Positions 5,620 through 16,979 of a DNA stretch of 55,296 nucleotides are shown here, one piece after another. The position numbers and the translations under genes were made by a program. The notes beneath the pieces were generated by a model, which worked only from the letters and a program-made list of their open reading frames with translations, was not told where the DNA came from and did not search any database. Source of the DNA: an uncultured Fidelibacterota bacterium (GTDB taxonomy: Bacteria > Fidelibacterota > UBA8477 > JABMPR01); the NCBI GenBank assembly GCA_937888365.1, contig CALBFA010000048.1:1-55296 (forward strand). The letters are read 5' to 3'. The first letter of the stretch is position 1, and the number at the start of each line of letters is the position of its first letter.

Positions 5620-6921
5620 ATGGCTGGTTTAAAAGAAGTATTAGCATCCAAAATTCCTGATTTCAGGGACGAAGTAAAAGACATTCGGAAAAATCATGGT
5701 GACATTGTTCTCGGACAAGTTACTGTAGGTCAGGCTTATGGCGGAATGCGTGGCATTAAAGGCATGATTACAGAAACGTCTGCATTAGATCCAGAAGAAG
5801 GCATTCGCTTTCGTGGATTTACAATTCCAGATTTGCAAGTTAAGCTTCCAAATCATCCAGAAGGCGAAGAACCAATGCCAGAGGGTTTGTTTTATTTGTT
5901 ATTGACAGGCGATCTTCCAAACAAAGCCGATGTCGATGCAATTACAGCAGAGTGGCATAAACGAGGTCATTTACCTGAGCACGTATTCGCTGTATTAGAT
6001 GCCTTGCCAAAAACGACTCATCCAATGACGCAATTTTCAATCGGGATTAATGCCTTGCAAACGGATTCTATTTTTGCAGCGAAATATCGCGAAGGTATGC
6101 CTAAACAAGATTATTGGGATGCCACCTATGAAGATTCCATGAATCTAATTGCAAAACTACCTGCACTTGCTGCATATATTTATCGTCGTACCTATAAAGA
6201 TGGTAAACGTATTGATGCAGATCCAACATTGGATTGGTCAGGAAATTTTGCTCACATGATGGGATTCGAAGATAAGAAATTCCGCGAATTAATGCGTTTG
6301 TATCTCACAATCCATTCAGATCACGAAGGTGGAAACGTTTCTGCTCACACAACTCACCTTGTCGGTACAGCATTATCTGATGCCTATTTATCTCTAGCCG
6401 CAGGTATGAACGGTTTAGCGGGTCCATTGCATGGTCTCGCCAACCAAGAAGTGCTTCGTTGGATTATGGATGTTAAAAAACAATTCGGTGATGGTGTCCT
6501 AACAAAAGAAACCATGTCAAAATTTGTATGGGATACATTGAATAGTGGACAAGTTATCCCGGGTTATGGTCACGCAGTTCTTAGAAAAACAGATCCACGT
6601 TATTCTGCTCAACGGGAATTTGCATTAAAGCACATGCCAGATGATGAACTGTTTAAAGTCGTCAGCTTGTTGTATGAAGTCGTTCCAGCAATTCTTAACG
6701 AACATGGGAAAGCGGCAAATCCATGGCCAAACGTTGATGCACATTCTGGTGTTTTACTCGTAAACAACGGTATGCATGAATACGATTTTTACACGGTACT
6801 TTTTGGAGTCTCTCGTGCTCTTGGTGTTCTTGCTTCATTGGTTTGGGATAGAGCCATTGGTTTTCCTTTGGAAAGACCTAAATCACTCACGACTGAGTTT
6901 ATTAAAACACTGATTAAATAG
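5620..6921 (+). CDS. gltA: Citrate synthase (mitochondrial-like type)
   Basis: Condenses acetyl-CoA and oxaloacetate to citrate, the entry step of the TCA cycle. The 433-residue protein keeps the catalytic triad: His271 in GPLHGLANQ, His318 in [10 protein letters not shown] and Asp373 in NVDAHSG. The N-terminus ([15 protein letters not shown]) and the helical insertions resemble the dimeric eukaryotic/mitochondrial type rather than the allosteric hexameric enterobacterial type. Translation starts after a near-perfect AAGGAGG site. It is monocistronic, with its own promoter and a strong terminator, and borders the integron-like cassette array. Confidence 0.96.
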
Positions 6922-6939
6922 TCGATCATAAAATAATCT

Positions 6940-6978
6940 AAAAGGGTCATTCACTGAGAAGTGAGTGACCCTTTTTTA
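6940..6978 (+). terminator. Rho-independent terminator of citrate synthase
   Basis: AAGGGTCA..TCACT pairs with AGTGAG.TGACCCTT around a GAGA loop, followed by a T-run. It lies about 20 bp after the stop codon and marks the chromosomal side of the cassette array. Confidence 0.85.
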
Positions 6979-6994
6979 TTATCCAGTTTGGTTG

Positions 6995-7118
6995 ATCTAA
7001 CGGAGTTTCAATTCACCCGCACGGAGCTGTTTATTTTTTTCACTCCCTTTGTGTCGAAGATTCCGACTGAAGTGAATACGGAATGTCGGAGTGGGTCAGC
7101 TTGAAGCTTTTGTTAGGC
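6995..7118 (-). other. attC recombination site 1 (complete)
   Basis: Read on the minus strand it begins with R'' GCCTAAC and ends with R' GTTAGAT. Both match the RYYYAAC and GTTRRRY consensus exactly. Inner arms AGCTTCAAGCTGA and GGTGAATTGAAACT pair imperfectly, and the middle holds a further imperfect TTCCGAC-type inverted repeat, giving a 124-bp foldable site. The stop codon of the upstream gene is the TAA inside R'', a classic cassette arrangement. Confidence 0.85.
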
Positions 7119-7658
7119 ATTTTTCTTTGAGCCGAGGAAATTTCTTTCATCAGCCATCAGTATTGGAGTTATCTTTATAAATGAGGCCCTAATTTCATGG
7201 AACATTGAGACGATCGCCTGCAGGTTTACTTCAAAATTATGTTCCATTGATGGCATATTATTTTTCGTAAGTGGATACCTAAAGGTGAAAGAATTGACAT
7301 CTATCTCGATAAAGAAATTCGCGTGTTTATCTATGAGAGCCCATGACGATTTCCAAGGTGATCCTGAAAGCGGCTCATAACTTTGTAAGAATTTGTGGGT
7401 TGTATTCATAAGTTGTTTCAGGTCGTGGTTAAAAATTAACAGATCATTGTTTTGAATCTCACCTAATTGTGCAAGGATATCTTTCAATCCAAGCTCAATC
7501 ACATGTCTAACGTTAAATAGCAGTGCATACATGGAAGCACTGTGCAGGCGTTCTTGCTTGTTGATTAAAGTATTTAAAGAGGCTTCAATAAATTCACAAT
7601 AGCCTTCGTAATAATACCCCCAGGGATCTAGCATCGATTTATTCGTTAAATTAATCAT
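7113..7658 (-). CDS. Cassette gene: HEPN-like helical protein of unknown function
   Basis: A 181-residue, mostly helical soluble protein without a signal peptide. The stretch RHVIELGLKDIL (about 51-62), followed by a HDLKQLM segment (about 78-84), resembles HEPN-like proteins in which a helix with R/E/K is followed by an H-D/N-L helix. Many of these accompany nucleotidyltransferases or defence functions. No partner is present and the catalytic RNase motif is not clear, so the function is open. The ATG lies 10 bp after the R' core of the upstream attC and has no obvious ribosome site. The stop codon is inside the downstream attC. Both are typical of integron cassettes. Confidence 0.7.
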   Translation of the reverse strand: MINLTNKSMLDPWGYYYEGYCEFIEASLNTLINKQERLHSASMYALLFNVRHVIELGLKDILAQLGEIQNNDLLIFNHDLKQLMNTTHKFLQSYEPLSGSPWKSSWALIDKHANFFIEIDVNSFTFRYPLTKNNMPSMEHNFEVNLQAIVSMFHEIRASFIKITPILMADERNFLGSKKNA

Positions 7659-7668
7659 TCACTAATAT

Positions 7669-7790
7669 GCCTAACGCCTTAGGCTTGAGCGGCTTCCCGA
7701 GAAAGCATCGCTTTGTATGATTATTGTATCCATCCACATCATTTTCGTTTTGCACACCTTTTGTGTGAGTCCGCTCTAAGCCGTTGTCAG
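7669..7790 (-). other. attC recombination site 2
   Basis: On the minus strand the site ends with R' GTTAGGC, an exact GTTRRRY match. Inner arms GGCTTAGAGCGG and CCGCTCAAGCC pair well. The R'' side (TGACAAC) departs from RYYYAAC. The site is about 122 bp, and its middle sequence is unlike that of the other three sites. The next gene starts about 10 bp beyond the core. Confidence 0.7.
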
Positions 7791-7877
7791 TTGGCTCAGA
7801 CACAATTCATCATGTCCATTACTCTAAATTACATGCTCCAATTTGGACACAAGACTTTTTCGCTATTTATTACCGAT

Positions 7878-9068
7878 TTAGAATTCAACAAGATTTATGG
7901 TTGTCTGAAAGGAATAGTGACCGACATAATTCCACTCATATTTTGTTAATCCGATATTTGGGCTAAAATACAAAGTCTCATCATTGTAAAGAAATATAAC
8001 CAGAGTTGAATAGGACTGTCCCTCAATGGATACGTTTGGACCTGGCGTGACTGAATAATCACTACTATTGTCAAGGATGAAGTGAAATGCAATTGGCATT
8101 CTACCACCACCGAATTCATCAGACTCAAAGACTCCATTAGTTTCAGTGATCAATATAATACTTTGCGTGGTAGTGACCGTACTGTCTACAATTATTGAGT
8201 CCGGGCGAGTTGAGGAAAAATAGTTATATGTGGTTGTTTTATAATATTGTGTTGTTGTTTCATTCAAATGATAAACTGTGACATCTGAAACTACCTTATC
8301 AATCACGGAATAGTCGATATTTGAATAGATAGAACGATAGATATATCCTTCGTCTTCCATGGTTTGAGCGGGTATGTCCCTGGCATCAACAAAATGCTTA
8401 TTGTATTTGTAGTGATCGCCTACTGATATAGGAAAATAGTCCTGCCTAATGCTATCCAAATAGACCTGTCCAAGATTAGTGTTGTTGGCATTAATCTGTA
8501 CTAATCGGGACGTTGACGCTTCATTTCCATAATAACTTTTATACCCATGAATTTCATAGTTTCCACTTTTAATATTTTCAAACCGATATGCTCCAGATGT
8601 GTTGATCACTGTTTCGTACGCTACTGTTCCTTCATGAACCAATTCAACGTGAGCTGGATAAACGTCGTACGGTACAAGTACTCCATCTCCATATAGATTA
8701 CCCGACACTGTACAGCTTTTCTCCAAAAGGAAATTTGCATTTGCCGTATTACCTTTGACTACCTCAATATTTATGCTGTCCAGAAAATACCCATCCATCC
8801 TGGCAATCGCTGTGTAAACTCCTGGTTCTACATCGAGAATTGTGTAAGCCCCCAGTGAATTTGACTGCACGACATGCGTTTCATCGATGCTAATATTAGC
8901 TTCCGCAATATGTGTACTATCATATTTGTCCAAAACTGTACCGGAAATATTCCCATTATCCGTTTGAGTGGTTTCGCTACAAGCTCCAACGAACATTAGA
9001 ACAACAATTACGAGACAAAAGAGTAGTCCAAGATTTAATTTTCGCAATGACTTATGCATTTCACTCAT
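7878..9068 (-). CDS. Cassette gene: lipoprotein with carboxypeptidase-regulatory-like domains
   Basis: A surface lipoprotein of about 396 residues. The hydrophobic signal ends in a lipobox (FVGAC, cysteine near residue 30). One carboxypeptidase-regulatory-like beta-sandwich follows (NISGTVLDKY to about residue 115), and a second similar segment runs about 118-205 (GNLYGDGVL onward, with SGAYRFENIKSGNYEIHGYKS). The C-terminal half, about 190 residues, is not recognised. The ATG at 9068 is preferred over the one at 9074 because GGAG lies 7 nt before it. It is the middle cassette, with its stop about 90 bp before the attC. Such domains often occur in surface proteins of the Bacteroidota side of the tree. 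Confidence 0.8.
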   Translation of the reverse strand: MSEMHKSLRKLNLGLLFCLVIVVLMFVGACSETTQTDNGNISGTVLDKYDSTHIAEANISIDETHVVQSNSLGAYTILDVEPGVYTAIARMDGYFLDSINIEVVKGNTANANFLLEKSCTVSGNLYGDGVLVPYDVYPAHVELVHEGTVAYETVINTSGAYRFENIKSGNYEIHGYKSYYGNEASTSRLVQINANNTNLGQVYLDSIRQDYFPISVGDHYKYNKHFVDARDIPAQTMEDEGYIYRSIYSNIDYSVIDKVVSDVTVYHLNETTTQYYKTTTYNYFSSTRPDSIIVDSTVTTTQSIILITETNGVFESDEFGGGRMPIAFHFILDNSSDYSVTPGPNVSIEGQSYSTLVIFLYNDETLYFSPNIGLTKYEWNYVGHYSFQTTINLVEF

Positions 9069-9107
9069 CCTCATTCTCCAATAATTGTTTAGTTACTAGC
9101 ATAGTCC

Positions 9108-9239
9108 AACTAACAAAGCTTCGATTCACCTGCACCGAGCTGTGTTTTTTTCATTTTCGTTGTACGCCCTTGCATGTCTTTGATTCCGACTGAAGTAACA
9201 CGAAACGTCGGAATGAGTCAGCTCTAAGCCGTTGTTATA
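9108..9239 (-). other. attC recombination site 3
   Basis: On the minus strand the site runs from R'' ATATAAC to R' GTTAGTT, with arms CGGCTTAGAGCTGACTC and GGTGAATCGAAGC. It shares GATTCCGACTGAAGT and TTCNATTCACC blocks with site 1, and TTCGATTCACCTGCACCGAG with the half site at 10019. This shows one attC family. The R'/R'' cores deviate by one base each from consensus. Length is 132 bp. Confidence 0.75.
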
Positions 9240-9253
9240 TGGTGCTTCTGCAT

Positions 9254-9919
9254 TCATTTTCCAATTGCAAGCCGGACATCTATCGTAAAACTAGGAAACC
9301 AACCGGACCCCATATCCAGCTTCTTGTCGAAGATTCCATCTCCGCTTGTATACCCAAGATGATATTCGGCGTTGTTTGAGCTAGTGATATATCTGTATCC
9401 AAGTCCAATCGAGTAGTCAAGTCGTTGATTATGTGGTGTGGGACTTTGTATTCCAAATACAACATGCGCAGCAACTTCGCTTCTGTAAATGGAATAAAAT
9501 TCTGTGAAATATGTTCTCCCGGATATTGTACCGCCACTTAGAGCACTGGCAGTATGCGAATCAGAAATATCCATGTATTTTGCAAACATCTGAAATCCTG
9601 AATAGAAATCTTTGCTACGAAAAGGTAGGTATCTTCTCAATTCAAGCTCTATTTTCGCTCCCTGGATACTATGAACATTTCTTGTAATCATTGACCCCTT
9701 TGTGTTGAAATGAGTAACATATCCATACTCGTGATTAACTGAAAAAACATCAGTAATTGGAGTTTCTCGCCCCAGCATAATTGTCATTCCCTCGAAATCA
9801 ACATTGCTCCAAAAATCACTTAAACTCAATTTAAGTAGTCTGTGATCCTCAAGATTGCCTGCAAGTACCGAACTCAGAATTCCAGTACAGATCACGACCA
9901 ACTTAAGTATTTTCTTCAT
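9254..9919 (-). CDS. Cassette gene: predicted small outer-membrane beta-barrel protein
   Basis: A 221-residue exported protein with a cleavable signal peptide (MKKILKLVV to about residue 20, ending VLAG). The rest is alternating polar/hydrophobic strands rich in Gly, Tyr and Phe (for example LDYSIGLGYRYIT and FTIDVRLAIGK), typical of 8- to 10-stranded barrels. It is not assigned to a family. The frame extends to 9946, but the ATG at 9919 follows GAGGAAATA and begins the signal peptide. It is the first cassette on the upstream side of the array, with its stop 15 bp before attC site 3. Confidence 0.75.
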   Translation of the reverse strand: MKKILKLVVICTGILSSVLAGNLEDHRLLKLSLSDFWSNVDFEGMTIMLGRETPITDVFSVNHEYGYVTHFNTKGSMITRNVHSIQGAKIELELRRYLPFRSKDFYSGFQMFAKYMDISDSHTASALSGGTISGRTYFTEFYSIYRSEVAAHVVFGIQSPTPHNQRLDYSIGLGYRYITSSNNAEYHLGYTSGDGIFDKKLDMGSGWFPSFTIDVRLAIGK

Positions 9920-10018
9920 TATTTCCTCATTCTGTGCTACAAACAATTGATAAGTTCAAGGATTCAGACAATTAGACGATTTCCTCTATACCCCATTAGA
10001 AGCCCATCATCTCTATCC

Positions 10019-10055
10019 ATATAACGGAGCTTCGATTCACCTGCACCGAGGTGTG
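10019..10055 (-). other. Truncated attC half site
   Basis: This carries R' GTTATAT and the adjoining arm seen in site 3 (TTCGATTCACCTGCACCGAG, plus strand). The matching R''/L'' half is missing over the next 170 bp, where an unrelated inverted repeat lies instead. It marks the upstream edge of the array, either a deleted attC or a former junction. Confidence 0.65.
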
Positions 10056-10063
10056 TTTTTCCC

Positions 10064-10170
10064 ATAATCCTGAATTATTTAAATAAATTCTTGTTTCAAA
10101 ATAAATCCTGTATTTTTGCAATTTTCGCTGCGGATAACTTCGCTTGAATTTATTTCAAAACAAGGATTAT
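10064..10170. repeat. Imperfect inverted repeat at the cassette-array edge
   Basis: ATAATCC and AAATAAATTC (10064-10090) recur in reverse complement as GAATTTATTT and GGATTAT (10146-10170), so the region can fold into an approximately 105-nt hairpin. It replaces the missing half of the attC site. It may be a small MITE-like insertion or the terminator region of the upstream large gene; no target duplication was identified. Confidence 0.5.
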
Positions 10171-10223
10171 TCACGAAGTGGGGGTTTCTATCCTGAGGAT
10201 TGACGATTTAGCATAAAAAAATC

Positions 10224-13200
10224 CTACAAATGCTTCACCAAACCCTCATGATCTTGGTCGAGGTGAAATCCTAATTTATAGAAAAAACCCGGATGTAAGA
10301 AACCTGTAATAATCGTGCGATGCCCTTCTTGTTTTAGACGCGCTAACCAGTCTTCCATAAGTCCGCGACTGAGTCCACGACCGCGATAATGCCGACTGAC
10401 GACAATTTTATCCATATAAATATGGCCTTTTTGGTTTTTCTCGTAAAATAAGCCTGCAATGACGCGATTGTGTTCGTTTAAAGCAATCAAGAATTTATGC
10501 TGTGCCGTGAACTGGACTTCAAGATTCGCCGTATCAAATAAATGATGCAACGCGACTAACTCTTTAGGATTAATCGGTCCGCGGATTCTATAATTTTCGC
10601 CCGATGAATCCGTCCGCGTCACCATCATTTCGACTGAATTTCCGTCGGTGGAGCGTGTTGCCAAAAGGTCAATATTGTCGTTTTCTTTTAAGTGTGGAAA
10701 GGGGAGTCGTTTTAGAAAAAATTGGATGTCTTCACTCAAGTCATTTTCTTGTACTAGCGTTGATAGCTCGAGCTGAAAGCTTGATTCATTGAAACCATTT
10801 TGGCGAATATTTCGCATTAATTGGTGAATCATTATTTTAAATTGATCATCTTCGTTCATAAAAGCCGTCGTTAAAAATAGCCGTAAACGCACATCAGGAT
10901 ACGCCGATTCGATACGACTGATAGCATAATCTTGATACAAACTCTGAATATACCGTCCTCGCGCCGCAACACTGGCGACTTCATTTAATTTTAGCCAGCG
11001 GGCATAGCGTCGTTTCGCAAAAAATATTGCTTTCGGCTCAAAACCAAATTCTTCCACATCCTCTAAAAATTTTTTAACTAAAATGGTTTCAAGTGCGTTT
11101 GCTCCACTCGTCTCCAAAACCACTTTGAAAAAATCCAAGGCTCCTGTACCTAAAGCTTGATAAATGGCTTTTATAATAATGATATAGTCACTTTCGATCT
11201 CGGCTTCAGAGCTTGCCAAAGAGCCATCAAATATAAAATGCTTTTTAACAAGTTTTAATAAGGTGAGGGGAGATGCTTGACTAATACGATGCGAAATTGA
11301 AATAATGCGACCTCCCATTTTATAATCATGCTCAGGTATTATGATGTTTTTGGGGGAGGGTTTGGCGTTAAAAGTTTGGTAGCCTGTCTGTTTCCAAAAT
11401 GCGAAATATGCACTGGTGCCAGTCCATAAAAAATGTTGCCATAAATGATGCCTTGTTGGCACGGCCTCAGAAACATTATTACGTGCTTCTTTCTCTAAAA
11501 AATTGTGGACCGTGTCGCCAAATATATACTCTTCAGACCATAGATTAAGTTCTGGATAATAAGAGCCGATTTCCTCCACAATTGAAAGCGCCCTATCGTA
11601 TTTCGACGATACAATTAACCAACGAATTTCTTCCAAAATTTCCGTTTCAGTGAGGCCCTCATTGTAATTTAAAGCGAAGTTATAGGTTTTTGCGGTTTTT
11701 GTCGTGATGGATACACGATAAACCGTTTTTTGCGTACTCGTTCCGAGAAATGAAATCCAAATACCTTCTGGCGGGATGTCTTGAAGATCCAGTAGAATGC
11801 CATTATAAAGAAGAAAAATAGACTCTCGCAAAAAGGGCGTTTCCGTCAGAGCATGGAATATTTCTTTTTGACGATCGATTGAGATTTCTTCACTAAATTT
11901 TATGGCATCGTACCAATCATAAGGCCAGTCAACTTCCGAAAGTACGGCCTGATTCTCCGGAACACCGATGGCGTTTCTGAATACTTGTATATTGAGGCGC
12001 AATAATGTTTCCAGCACATCATAGCGTGGATCTGTTTTATCGAGATTCACAAGACATCGGACAAGACGCACCCGATAGGCATGATAAAACTTGGGATACT
12101 GCTTTATAATGGATAAAAATGATGACAAAATATTTTTGAAAATTGTAAATTCACTTTTGTTCGTTATTGCCTTAAGATAGGCTTCATCAAAACGCTCAAG
12201 AATAAGCTCAATCTTCGTATTATTTAGGCGCAACCACGTCGTTTTAACCGTCGTTTTGGATGTAAAGAAACTAGGCGTTTTTAAAACCAACTCCAATGTG
12301 TTTACGACTTCTTCGCTTTGACTTATTCCCAATGCATGTTGAAAAGCAAAATGGGCGATGTCGATATTGGGCGATTTGGAAAGTCTCAGAAATGCGTAAC
12401 GTAAAGCTGTGCGTTGCGGTTCTAGGCTAAGCCGCCCCGCCATTGAAACCATACGATAGGCAGGATGATCTAAGCTGATGGCATCCGAAAACAATAATTT
12501 AAAGACAGGGTGTAAGGCATTAATAGACAAATCTCTCGATTTAAGAGCATGCTCAATATGAAGCTTAATATCCAATTTTTCTTCTAAGGGAAGTTTCTTC
12601 AGGGGAATCCCTACGGGTCCCAATTCAGGTAAATCTCGACTCGCTTTTACTTGAAACTTTTCATATTCTAAAAAATTGACGAGAGCCTCATTGCCTAACG
12701 CATAAGCGGGATGTTTAATAATATGCTCAAAATCTAAATAACTCTTAGAAAAGGAATATTCTAAATCTCCAAGTTGCAAAATGTTTTTATCTAACTCAAA
12801 GCTAAGTCTATTCTTTGTTTGGCGATTGACGAGCTCATGACCTTCAACGAAAATAATATCCCGCGTCCATCCACGTTGCATATAAAACCAGTTCGGGAAG
12901 CGTATTTCCAAGTTATTGATCGTAAATTTTACGTAGAGCGATTCGTAAAGCGGCTTTATGATGCCTGCATAATTCTCTAGTATTTTTTGACGCTTAAATG
13001 TCCCTTTTTCAGTGAGTTCATCCTTTTCCTTGGTGAAATCTTCATCAATGACGGTAAAGTTAATGACACGTTCAAAGGCTGCTAAAAAGGCATTCACCGA
13101 GTGAACAATTGAGGCGACATATTGCTGTAATTGCACAGGATCTGATATTTTTTCTTTGATGGATTCGGCGTCTTTGTTTAAAACAATCAACGCCGTATTA

Positions 13201-14843
13201 TAAGGGAGGTGATCGCCTACAATAAAAGCGTTTTGAATGGATTCAAAATCTTTGAAAAGGTTTTCGATGCGCTGCGGTGCAATAGTTTGACCGCGCGAAT
13301 TCTTGTAGATTTCTTTCTTTCTGTCAATGATTTGGAGATGTCCCCGAGGTAAATATTTAAAAATATCTTCTGTCGGGAACCAATTGTCCTCGCGAATATC
13401 CTCGAAATCGGGTTTCCAATACGATGTGGAAACATAAGGTCCGCGTAGCAATAATTCGCCGTCATCGGCTAATTTTATTTCGATACCTGGCAAGGCTTTT
13501 CCGACTGAATCTTCGACATAATTATGGATGGGTGTCATTAAAATGCCGCCGGTTGCTTCCGTCATGCCGTATCCAGACATCAACTTTACGCCATGCAATT
13601 GAAAGAATTGAAAAACTTCGGGTGCGAGATAACCTGCCGCAGACAATCCCCACTTTAAATTAGGTCCAGTAATATTTTGCAATACGGCTTTTTGCGCATC
13701 GAGGTCGCTATTTTTTAAGTCGATGGTTTGGTTCACACGTTCGTAGATTTCTTGCCATCGTTTCGGAATACTAATCATTACTGTTGGTTGAATAGCTTTA
13801 AAATCATCAATGAGATTATGAAAACCTGAACCGCTAACAAAGGTGTAAGTGGCTCCCCAAAAAATCGTACCCCAAAGCTCTAAAAATCGACCAAAGGTGT
13901 GATACATAGGTAAGAATGAGAGGAAAGAGTCTTGGTCGCCTATAGGAAGCGCTAATGTGCGGGCAAATCGCTTCGAAATGATATTTTCGTATGTAAAAAC
14001 GATGCCTTTCGGATAACCAGTCGTTCCCGATGTGTACATTACGGTGGCAATATCATCAAGCTTTACATCGTTTATACGTTGATTTAAATCGACATTGGTT
14101 TTTGGTTTACTCATGAATTGTTGCCAGCCAATAACATTGCCATCTGCAGAGTAAGGATATTCATCCAAAACAATGATATGTTTCAATTTTTTCAGATTCA
14201 TAAGAATAGGTTCGAGGCGTTTGAGAAAAAAACGTGTCCCAACAAACAAGTATTCGACATCAGAGTGATTTAAAATGTATTCGAGCTGGGCAACGGGTGC
14301 GTTTGTCTGGAGGGGAATATTGCGGAATCCGTAACTTAAACAAGCCACATCCTCAATGACGACTTCGATTCGATTTTCCGAAAGTATGGCAATTGGGCCT
14401 GGTTTATTATGGCTGAGTTGCAAAAGGGAATGAGCGAATTGCTCCACATTTTTGGATAATTTATCCCACGTAATTTTTGTATAGGTGTTACCCTCTTTAA
14501 ATTGAAAAAGGGCTTTTTTTAAATATTTCGATTTCCGTGAATGAAATAAGACCCCAGGTGTATAGTTTGCTGAGCGTATTAATTGCATCTCGAATTGAAA
14601 GAAATCGTTTTTTTCTTCAATGGAAGTCAGAGCTTCTGCTAAGGTGGGCATGGCACCGATTTCTAAAAAAAGCATTTTTTGTTCTAGTGAACCCTCAGAC
14701 AGGATATGATTTCCTAATTTCATTATTTTTTTAATATTCATAGGCGAGGTGAGCAATGAAGCCTTATAAACATCCCAAGAATTAGCCCAAGTATTTGATT
14801 TTAAATTGTTTATCGGTTTAGTAATATTGTTAGAGCCCATCAT
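10224..14843 (-). CDS. Giant AMP-dependent ligase / GNAT acetyltransferase fusion
   Basis: A product of about 1,539 residues. An AMP-binding acyl-CoA-synthetase-like domain spans about 100-650, with the ATP loop YTSGTTGYPKG (about 274-284), GYGMTEATGG (about 428-437), a DRKK.IYKNSRG hinge and a C-terminal EKGTFKR loop. About 750 residues of mostly helical, unrecognised sequence follow (650-1390). A GNAT domain ends the protein (about 1395-1540), with the acetyl-CoA motif RHYRGRGLSRGLM. It probably activates a fatty or other carboxylic acid; the acetyltransferase may modify it or another ligase. The frame opens at a TTG at 14855; the ATG at 14843 sits 6 nt after GAGG and is preferred. It is monocistronic. 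Confidence 0.85.
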   Translation of the reverse strand: MMGSNNITKPINNLKSNTWANSWDVYKASLLTSPMNIKKIMKLGNHILSEGSLEQKMLFLEIGAMPTLAEALTSIEEKNDFFQFEMQLIRSANYTPGVLFHSRKSKYLKKALFQFKEGNTYTKITWDKLSKNVEQFAHSLLQLSHNKPGPIAILSENRIEVVIEDVACLSYGFRNIPLQTNAPVAQLEYILNHSDVEYLFVGTRFFLKRLEPILMNLKKLKHIIVLDEYPYSADGNVIGWQQFMSKPKTNVDLNQRINDVKLDDIATVMYTSGTTGYPKGIVFTYENIISKRFARTLALPIGDQDSFLSFLPMYHTFGRFLELWGTIFWGATYTFVSGSGFHNLIDDFKAIQPTVMISIPKRWQEIYERVNQTIDLKNSDLDAQKAVLQNITGPNLKWGLSAAGYLAPEVFQFFQLHGVKLMSGYGMTEATGGILMTPIHNYVEDSVGKALPGIEIKLADDGELLLRGPYVSTSYWKPDFEDIREDNWFPTEDIFKYLPRGHLQIIDRKKEIYKNSRGQTIAPQRIENLFKDFESIQNAFIVGDHLPYNTALIVLNKDAESIKEKISDPVQLQQYVASIVHSVNAFLAAFERVINFTVIDEDFTKEKDELTEKGTFKRQKILENYAGIIKPLYESLYVKFTINNLEIRFPNWFYMQRGWTRDIIFVEGHELVNRQTKNRLSFELDKNILQLGDLEYSFSKSYLDFEHIIKHPAYALGNEALVNFLEYEKFQVKASRDLPELGPVGIPLKKLPLEEKLDIKLHIEHALKSRDLSINALHPVFKLLFSDAISLDHPAYRMVSMAGRLSLEPQRTALRYAFLRLSKSPNIDIAHFAFQHALGISQSEEVVNTLELVLKTPSFFTSKTTVKTTWLRLNNTKIELILERFDEAYLKAITNKSEFTIFKNILSSFLSIIKQYPKFYHAYRVRLVRCLVNLDKTDPRYDVLETLLRLNIQVFRNAIGVPENQAVLSEVDWPYDWYDAIKFSEEISIDRQKEIFHALTETPFLRESIFLLYNGILLDLQDIPPEGIWISFLGTSTQKTVYRVSITTKTAKTYNFALNYNEGLTETEILEEIRWLIVSSKYDRALSIVEEIGSYYPELNLWSEEYIFGDTVHNFLEKEARNNVSEAVPTRHHLWQHFLWTGTSAYFAFWKQTGYQTFNAKPSPKNIIIPEHDYKMGGRIISISHRISQASPLTLLKLVKKHFIFDGSLASSEAEIESDYIIIIKAIYQALGTGALDFFKVVLETSGANALETILVKKFLEDVEEFGFEPKAIFFAKRRYARWLKLNEVASVAARGRYIQSLYQDYAISRIESAYPDVRLRLFLTTAFMNEDDQFKIMIHQLMRNIRQNGFNESSFQLELSTLVQENDLSEDIQFFLKRLPFPHLKENDNIDLLATRSTDGNSVEMMVTRTDSSGENYRIRGPINPKELVALHHLFDTANLEVQFTAQHKFLIALNEHNRVIAGLFYEKNQKGHIYMDKIVVSRHYRGRGLSRGLMEDWLARLKQEGHRTIITGFLHPGFFYKLGFHLDQDHEGLVKHL

Positions 14844-15034
14844 TCTCATCCTCAATCATATTACGAATAGTATAGTTAGTCCGATGCCGAGAGCAATCAT
14901 GGATAAAATAGATGTGTATGAAAAAGATTGAAAACTATCTTTGTAATCCTATCTTTTGCCGAACAAAAAAAATGGTTTTAGATTGAAATTTATTTAAAAC
15001 TTTAGCATAAGATAAAAGAAAGAAGCATTCTTAA

Positions 15035-16840
15035 ATGGAAACAGTATTTGCACAAGATATACGAGTTTTGATTGTCGAAGACGAACACATCGTTTCTCAT
15101 CATTTAAAAATGACTCTATTGGCCTTTGGTTACCAGGTTGTTGCATGTGTATCTACCGCCTTTGAAGCCATTGAAGCGGCAAAATCATCTGCTCCAGATA
15201 TCATTTTAATGGACGTCTTTCTTAAAGGTAAAATGGATGGAATTGAAGCGGCGAATCAAATCCGTCAAAACAAAGACATCCCCATTATTTTCATTACCGC
15301 CTCCGCTCATGATGAGATATTAGAGCGAATTCGAGCCTCAAGGCCATACGGTTATTTATCAAAACCGTTTGAAGATAGAGAACTTAAAACAAATATTGAT
15401 ATGGCCATGTTTCGATGGAAACTTGAAAATGAGATCAATAAAGAACGTTCGTTAGCGAAACACTATTTGGACATGGCGGCTGTTATTATGCTTGCGTTGG
15501 ACAGAGAGGGCAATATTACTATGATTAACAAACTCGGCGCTAAACTCTTAGGCTATCATAGTAAAGAACTTATTGGTAAAAACTGGTTTAAACTTTATGT
15601 CCCGCCATCTGAATATGAGTTTGTTTATAATAATTTTAAAGACGTAATAACCTCGAAAAGAGAAACGTCGCATCATTTTGAAAATAACATTCAAACACGT
15701 TTTGGCGTTAATCGAACGATTTCATGGAATTCAACTCTTTTAAAAGATAACGATAGTAGAATAATCGGTATATTGAGTGCTGGTGAGGATATTACGGAGA
15801 AAAAAATTGCGCAGCAAAAAATTATAGCGAGTGAAAAAAATCTTTTACAAGCTCAGAAATTAGCAAAAATATTTACATGGGAAGTTGATGTCTTAAATCG
15901 CACGCTTTATCCTGATATATCATCACAATTCATTTTTAGTGATGATTCAGCTAATATTTCTTCCAGGGACGGAATCAGTTTGGATGAATTTATTGCGCTG
16001 ATTCACCCTGATGATCAAGATTCTTTAGAAAAATTATATATTAATTGTGTTAAAACACAAAAACCCTACGATACGATTTATCGACTCAATACAAATGATG
16101 GGACAGAAAAATTTATTGCAGATCACATCTATGGTGTAAAAGTAGAAAATGGCTACACAACCAGAATTCAAGGGCTTTCGCAAGATATAACCAAGCGAAA
16201 AAAAGTTGAAGATGCACTGATGCAAAATGATTCATCCCTATTGGTCATCAATAAATTACTTTCATTAACACTGAGTAGCGAACCGCCGCCTCAATTTATT
16301 GAGAAATGTTTAAAAATAATTGTTGAAGAGCCCTTATTAAAACTCAAACGTCATGCACTCCCTTTTCTATTTGAGGAAAAAAAGAGTGACGCATTAAAAT
16401 TACGCGGTTCCTATGGTGATATTCGTAAGCTGAAAGGTGATATTGCATCAATTGAAGCGGGGAATTGTGTCTCGAAAGATTCAAATCTAATGAATCAAAT
16501 TATTACTAAAAAAAGTTTTAAAAAGAGTGATGTCAAATCCTTTCAACATTGCAAAGAGCATTTGCATCTTTTTCTCATAAAGAATAATAGCGTTTTTGGA
16601 ATGATTGTTGTTTATCCTGAAATTATTCCCAATGATAGTACACCGAGGTGCGCATTCTTTGACAGTATTTCAAATACTGTTTCTAATGTTATCGATAATG
16701 CACTCATCGAAACAGTTGCGAATCGAAAACTCGAAGAACTGAAGCAATTTCAAAGTCTCTCCATTGATCGAGAAGTTAAAATGCGAGAACTTAAGGAAAG
16801 AATCACGTACTTAGAAAATCAATTAAAACAGAAAAAATAG
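15035..16840 (+). CDS. Response regulator with REC, two PAS and a GAF-like domain, no kinase
   Basis: A 601-residue cytoplasmic signalling protein. The receiver domain (about 8-128) has an intact acidic pair E15/D16, phosphoacceptor D60, the ITAS switch and the LSKPFED lysine. PAS domains follow at about 140-262 and 275-395, the second of PAS_3 type with the usual GI..DIT/K tail. A GAF-like segment (about 400-560) and a short C-terminal coiled coil complete it. There is no histidine kinase, HD-GYP, GGDEF or DNA-binding domain, so the output is probably protein-protein contact. It is divergent from the ligase/GNAT gene and followed by gdhA. Confidence 0.82.
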   Translation: METVFAQDIRVLIVEDEHIVSHHLKMTLLAFGYQVVACVSTAFEAIEAAKSSAPDIILMDVFLKGKMDGIEAANQIRQNKDIPIIFITASAHDEILERIRASRPYGYLSKPFEDRELKTNIDMAMFRWKLENEINKERSLAKHYLDMAAVIMLALDREGNITMINKLGAKLLGYHSKELIGKNWFKLYVPPSEYEFVYNNFKDVITSKRETSHHFENNIQTRFGVNRTISWNSTLLKDNDSRIIGILSAGEDITEKKIAQQKIIASEKNLLQAQKLAKIFTWEVDVLNRTLYPDISSQFIFSDDSANISSRDGISLDEFIALIHPDDQDSLEKLYINCVKTQKPYDTIYRLNTNDGTEKFIADHIYGVKVENGYTTRIQGLSQDITKRKKVEDALMQNDSSLLVINKLLSLTLSSEPPPQFIEKCLKIIVEEPLLKLKRHALPFLFEEKKSDALKLRGSYGDIRKLKGDIASIEAGNCVSKDSNLMNQIITKKSFKKSDVKSFQHCKEHLHLFLIKNNSVFGMIVVYPEIIPNDSTPRCAFFDSISNTVSNVIDNALIETVANRKLEELKQFQSLSIDREVKMRELKERITYLENQLKQKK

Positions 16841-16979
16841 TTACTTAATCATACAAAAGGGTGATAAGACTAAACAAAAATATTGTAAGAAATTATGACT
16901 TTTGTGGCATGTAATTTGAATCTTTTGCCAATTGGAAATGAAATCATTTAAAAAATATATTTAGACTTAGGAGATAAAA

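Follow-up and report, generated by a model that had tools for sequence, protein, structure and literature searches.

Lying between a citrate synthase gene and a gene for an AMP-binding/GNAT enzyme, an array of three cassettes in the window (the whole stretch of 55,296 nucleotides analysed here, which is contig C48 of its genome) is very likely a CALIN: a cluster of attC sites without an integrase of its own, inserted between these two genes, with a truncated upstream edge and attC sites of a resident VCR-like family. CALINs are an already known kind of structure; what is of interest here is the host lineage and a possibly swapped integrase.

Anatomy of the array and its attC sites

Across positions 6995–10064, three minus-strand genes alternate with attC-like elements, one attC lying 3′ of each gene, and both the ORFs and the elements were located where the original prediction had put them. 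Three attC sites (6995–7118, 7669–7792 and 9108–9240) are accompanied by a truncated fourth (10019–10064), and in cassette orientation the order is half attC, gene 3, attC 3, gene 2, attC 2, gene 1, attC 1 and the citrate synthase terminator. Measured core to core, the cassettes of genes 3, 2 and 1 are 911, 1439 and 674 bp long, in agreement with the predicted range of 0.67–1.44 kb. The four predicted cores are all present as R′ sequences in cassette orientation, but the fourth belongs to an element that is only the L′–R′ half of an attC. The features of the locus are as follows:

5620–6921, plus strand: citrate synthase, chromosomal flank (PF00285, E = 6.7e-96); adjoins the AMP-binding gene in relatives
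6933–6982: citrate synthase terminator, with a terminator-like stem at 6940–6975
6995–7118, minus strand: attC site 1, 3′ end of the array; R′ GTTAGAT (6995–7001), R″ GCCTAAC (7112–7118)
7113–7658, minus strand: cassette gene 1, 181 aa, without a family match
7669–7792, minus strand: attC site 2; R′ GTTAGGC (7669–7675), R″ TGACAAC
7878–9074, minus strand: cassette gene 2, 398 aa, lipoprotein-like, with a carboxypeptidase-regulatory-like domain (PF13620, E = 1.8e-16)
9108–9240, minus strand: attC site 3, of a second type; R′ GTTAGTT (9108–9114), R″ ATATAAC
9254–9916/9946, minus strand: cassette gene 3, 220–230 aa, exported (signal-peptide-like start), with a weak DUF3575 match below the cut-off
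10019–10064, minus strand: truncated attC, L′–R′ half only, upstream (right) edge of the array; R′ GTTATAT (10019–10025); 89% identity to the corresponding half of site 3
10064–10080, minus strand: AAATAATTCAGGATNAT, common only to this place and the putative attI flank beside intI (C21:11–27)
10224–14855, minus strand: AMP-binding enzyme fused to a GNAT acetyltransferase domain, 1543 aa, chromosomal flank (PF00501, E = 3.7e-64; PF00583); adjoins citrate synthase in relatives

The two flanks bear out the predicted setting of the array between ordinary housekeeping genes. An imperfect inverted repeat, AAATAAATTCTTGTTT / GAATTTATTTCAAAACAAGGATTATT, lies at the right edge of the array (10064–10223). 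Neighbouring attC sites are 0.67 and 1.44 kb apart, which places at least two of them within 4 kb, and no intI adjoins the array, which is internal to C48; the only IntI of the genome above the curated cut-off is on another contig, C21. The absence of an integrase, as predicted, therefore holds for the window contig and fails for the genome, where C21 encodes a full-length IntI.

A structure-only scan of the whole 55-kb contig, in which palindromes with RYYYAAC/GTTRRRY-like ends were collected de novo, ranked 7669–7796 first (−28.4) and 6995–7118 second (−27.0); 60 dinucleotide-shuffled versions of the contig gave just two hits in all that reached −26.9. We also built a covariance model (R1) from 18 attC sites of related genomes, holding out the window's genome entirely, with the pairings TAAC/GTTA, GGCTT/AAGCC and GAGCTG/CAGCTC around one extrahelical base. 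The attC family has a conserved architecture, TAAC..GGCTT-A-GAGCTG...CAGCTC-AAGCC..GTTA, with a one-base bulge; its pair cells are 94.8% paired, as against at most 47% in slid controls, and compensatory changes occur at two pairs in the family alignment. R1 matches site 2 (7669–7792) with 132.4 bits (E = 1.4e-34) and site 3 (9108–9240) weakly but in register (15 bits, E = 0.085); it gave no match at site 1 (6995–7118).

Site 1, site 3, the half site of the window and a 95% identical half site on contig C62 (C62:11898–11936) constitute a second, chimeric attC type, in which the R″–L″ half is as in the attC family and the L′–R′ half is divergent (CAGCTCGGTGCAGGTGAATCGAAGC). Homology connects site 3 with an attC of the array contig C1 (972–1065; E = 1e-19), with site 1 (E = 5e-14) and with the half site (E = 3e-10), and C1:903–1066 combines one half of each attC type. 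Site 2 and its family have both the R″/R′ boxes (RYYYAAC, GTTRRRY) and the L″/L′ pairing with its extrahelical base; in sites 1 and 3 the R boxes are retained but deviate (GTTAGTT, ATATAAC), and the L′ half is the divergent one.

As isolated DNA, site 3 folds about as well as its shuffles (z −0.34) and site 1 only slightly better than its own (z −1.38), and an Rfam search of the window returned no attC family match. Because isolated folding did not set sites 1 and 3 apart from shuffles, homology and the covariance model were used instead; and since these two sites are of the second type, to which R1 is weak or blind, they are supported by homology, position and boxes more than by the model. 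The predicted attC positions are thus borne out by the covariance model at site 2 and, weakly, at site 3, and by homology and folding at site 1. The further claim that the sites are those of a resident chromosomal integron also found support, with the same attC family present on C1, C28 and C40 and in most genomes of the host family.

The locus in relatives and the integron of the genome

The relatives compared here are of the host's family and order, none being from its genus. In same-family and same-order genomes whose contig reaches far enough, citrate synthase lies next to the AMP-binding gene, the two in convergent orientation. The gap between them is 102–108 bp in three same-order genomes and 611–818 bp in 17 same-family genomes (L021–L046), where it is occupied by a response-regulator gene; this response-regulator gene is conserved in the sister genus. 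No cassettes were found in the gap of the same-family and same-order genomes examined. A search of 59 related genomes found neither cassette gene 1 nor cassette gene 3, and gene 2, which was looked for at the locus only, is absent from it in relatives. The relatives' gap without cassettes, together with the missing genes 1 and 3, points to the array as an insertion of variable content. Conservation of the three genes in order across relatives, which was to count against a cassette array, is not what we observed, the short gap or the response-regulator gene standing there instead. For cassette genes 1 and 3 no function emerged from PADLOC and NCBIfam, nor for gene 1 from the PDB; an AlphaFold model of gene 1, made from the single sequence, was set aside (pLDDT 46).

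The window's genome (G000) comprises 2.53 Mb in 110 contigs and is 95% complete. The original prediction named an intI elsewhere in the genome as support, and one is indeed present on C21 beside an attI-like core. It is the single IntI over the curated cut-off (C21:211–1152, ORF 193–1176; TIGR02249, 355.9 bits against a cut-off of 265), and among solved structures it is closest to the Vibrio cholerae integron integrase (2A3V), to which it aligns over the whole length (E = 1.7e-66) and through the IntI-specific insertion. R137, K162, H267, R270, H293 and Y302 all occupy invariant columns of the IntI alignment, in which the KYPNA insertion motif is largely conserved. With its catalytic residues and IntI-specific insertion, the protein is a tyrosine recombinase of the integron type. 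An XerC-like integrase on C25 was considered as a second IntI and rejected, being 279 aa long, without the IntI insertion and below the cut-off; this XerC/D-type recombinase (C25:27138–27977; L019:9138–9977) lies next to a dnaA-like gene, some 100 bp short of the contig end.

C21 starts 193 bp upstream of intI with CTAAC, and its opposite strand ends ...CATAGTTAG, with a GTTAG attI-like core. C1, which is 6.3 kb long and in which minus-strand genes alternate with attC, ends exactly in ...GGGCCTAAC; its other end is the 19-bp inverted end of an insertion sequence (IS), the opposite end of which abuts the attC of C40. GTT flanks the IS on both sides, as a target duplication would. From contig ends meeting at the CTAAC core and via the IS, it is probable that C40, the IS, C1 and C21 are one complete chromosomal integron broken at repeats, each joint falling between separate contigs. 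The IS itself (C40:22201 [L180:10201]; C1:30–48 [L017]) has 19-bp inverted ends, GAGGCTGTCGAAAAAGGTC, and a transposase-like ORF; it sits in the R″ core of an attC and is reminiscent of attC-targeting insertion sequences. Several contigs end exactly at GTTA/GTTAG cores, namely C21 (L016:1) and C1 (L017:6288) of this genome, and G012:C73 (L139 end), G010:C51 (L182 end) and G046:C86 (L145 end) among its relatives. On C21 and G046:C86 the sequence before the core, beside intI, is unique, which suggests that the sampled population is mixed in the cassettes it carries at attI. A lone attC with degenerate cores lies outside any array at C28:490–613 (L179).

With the C1 attC as query, the attC family is present in 18 of 22 family and order relatives, at up to about 20 copies per genome, and many of the relatives that bear it also have IntI. 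Across the phylum set, 42 of 245 genomes have an IntI over the cut-off. In G010 (C51; L182/L140), of the same family, intI is transcribed toward attI and the cassettes. Two near-identical 110-bp attC-like palindromes (−45 kcal/mol) lie 1.45 kb apart just after intI in G020:C115, of the same order (L136:15287–15396 and 16735–16844). The IntI of C21 falls outside the clade formed by the IntI of the family that its genome resembles in attC (AU p = 0.0003, for a long branch and a test devised after the tree had been seen), so that its fit to the resident attC sites is putative. On a tentative and somewhat doubtful reading, the host family would carry sedentary chromosomal integrons with a lineage-wide attC, and in this genus an unrelated IntI, still active on the resident attC, would have taken the place of the original integrase and would seed cassettes, e.g. 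those of the window array, at secondary sites on the chromosome in wild populations.

Origin of the array

With an attC cluster at the predicted places, an intI elsewhere in the genome and cassette genes that are not conserved at the locus in relatives, the CALIN-like reading stands. In established integron biology, IntI engages attC as a folded bottom strand, cleaves it at G|TT and mobilises the cassettes in circular form, and the same mechanism is presumed here. The origins proposed for CALINs are off-target insertion, loss of intI and rearrangement (PMC8618304). Two routes may have brought the window array to its place, an off-target insertion by IntI or a rearrangement separating it from the main array. 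Part of the upstream attC would have been lost afterwards; the half site at the upstream edge speaks for a truncation that followed arrival. The IntI of C21 might conceivably move the window cassettes in trans.

A different history, which we consider unlikely, would place an integron platform, with an attI and intI of its own, at this locus in the past and make the array what remains of it: a later deletion of attI and intI, ending inside an attC, would have left the half site beside a remnant of the attI flank. The upstream edge of the array is indeed half an attC, and the adjoining AAATAATTCAGGATNAT, a possible attI relic, has only two exact matches in the genome, this one and one in the putative attI flank on C21. 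The shared stretch is, however, only 14–17 bp long and was noticed post hoc, and when two mismatches are allowed there are 20 similar places in the genome, as against two for the reversed pattern. Moreover, no intI remnant was seen, and the relatives have no integron at the citrate synthase/AMP-binding locus.

That the array was wrongly joined between two unrelated chromosomal pieces, by an artefact of assembly or binning, is very improbable: such arrays are rich in repeats, and many contigs here are broken within one, but both flank genes are neighbours in relatives and the GC content of the array (0.38–0.39) is that of its contig. Most improbable of all is that the elements are palindromic repeats of a different kind (REP-like or MITE-like), dispersed and lying between genes by chance, rather than a functional integron structure. 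The similar single elements at C28 and C40 would fit such repeats, as would the poor folding of sites 1 and 3 alone. They are strongly disfavoured by the linkage of attC and intI in relatives, and the GTTRRRY/RYYYAAC-like ends, the one-base bulge with compensatory pairs, the strict alternation with same-strand genes in C1 and beside intI in G010:C51, and the contigs that terminate exactly at the GTTA core all speak against them.

Phylum and comparison with known integrons

An exact match to the SAR406-97 probe target, which we take to be a mark of Marinimicrobia/SAR406 16S, is found in 70 of 244 genomes of the phylum set, the one phylum searched; the one match that was checked lies in 16S. A literature check of the probe found nothing. 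Resting on this 16S probe match, the phylum is probably Marinimicrobia. The prediction of a Marinimicrobia-like genome fits the matches in the phylum set, but no copy of the probe target was found in the window's genome itself. Integrons have been listed for about fourteen bacterial phyla, Marinimicrobia not among them (PMC8618304), and our literature searches found no paper on integrons in Marinimicrobia. If the phylum is right, one family with a VCR-like attC set in most of its genomes would be a natural system in which to watch cassette shuffling in uncultured populations, and the window array an example of cassettes that have moved off the platform to a position between housekeeping genes.

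Like known CALINs, the window array has at least two attC sites less than 4 kb apart, co-oriented cassette genes and no nearby intI, and its three sites are within the usual range (known CALINs average almost six). It differs in that its host lineage is not listed for integrons in the literature searched, and its attC sites were assigned by model R1, built from relatives, rather than by the reference covariance model. In Treponema integrons intI points toward attI (PMC3607928), as in the same-family G010, and unlike the IntI of the window's genome, which appears to have the usual divergent layout. The sedentary chromosomal integrons of Vibrio, with their VCR-type sites, are alike in having a lineage-wide attC family (here about 75–87% identical) with many copies per genome and, in the relatives, intI nearby; unlike them, the genome studied here has resident-type sites scattered over several contigs and an IntI from another IntI lineage.
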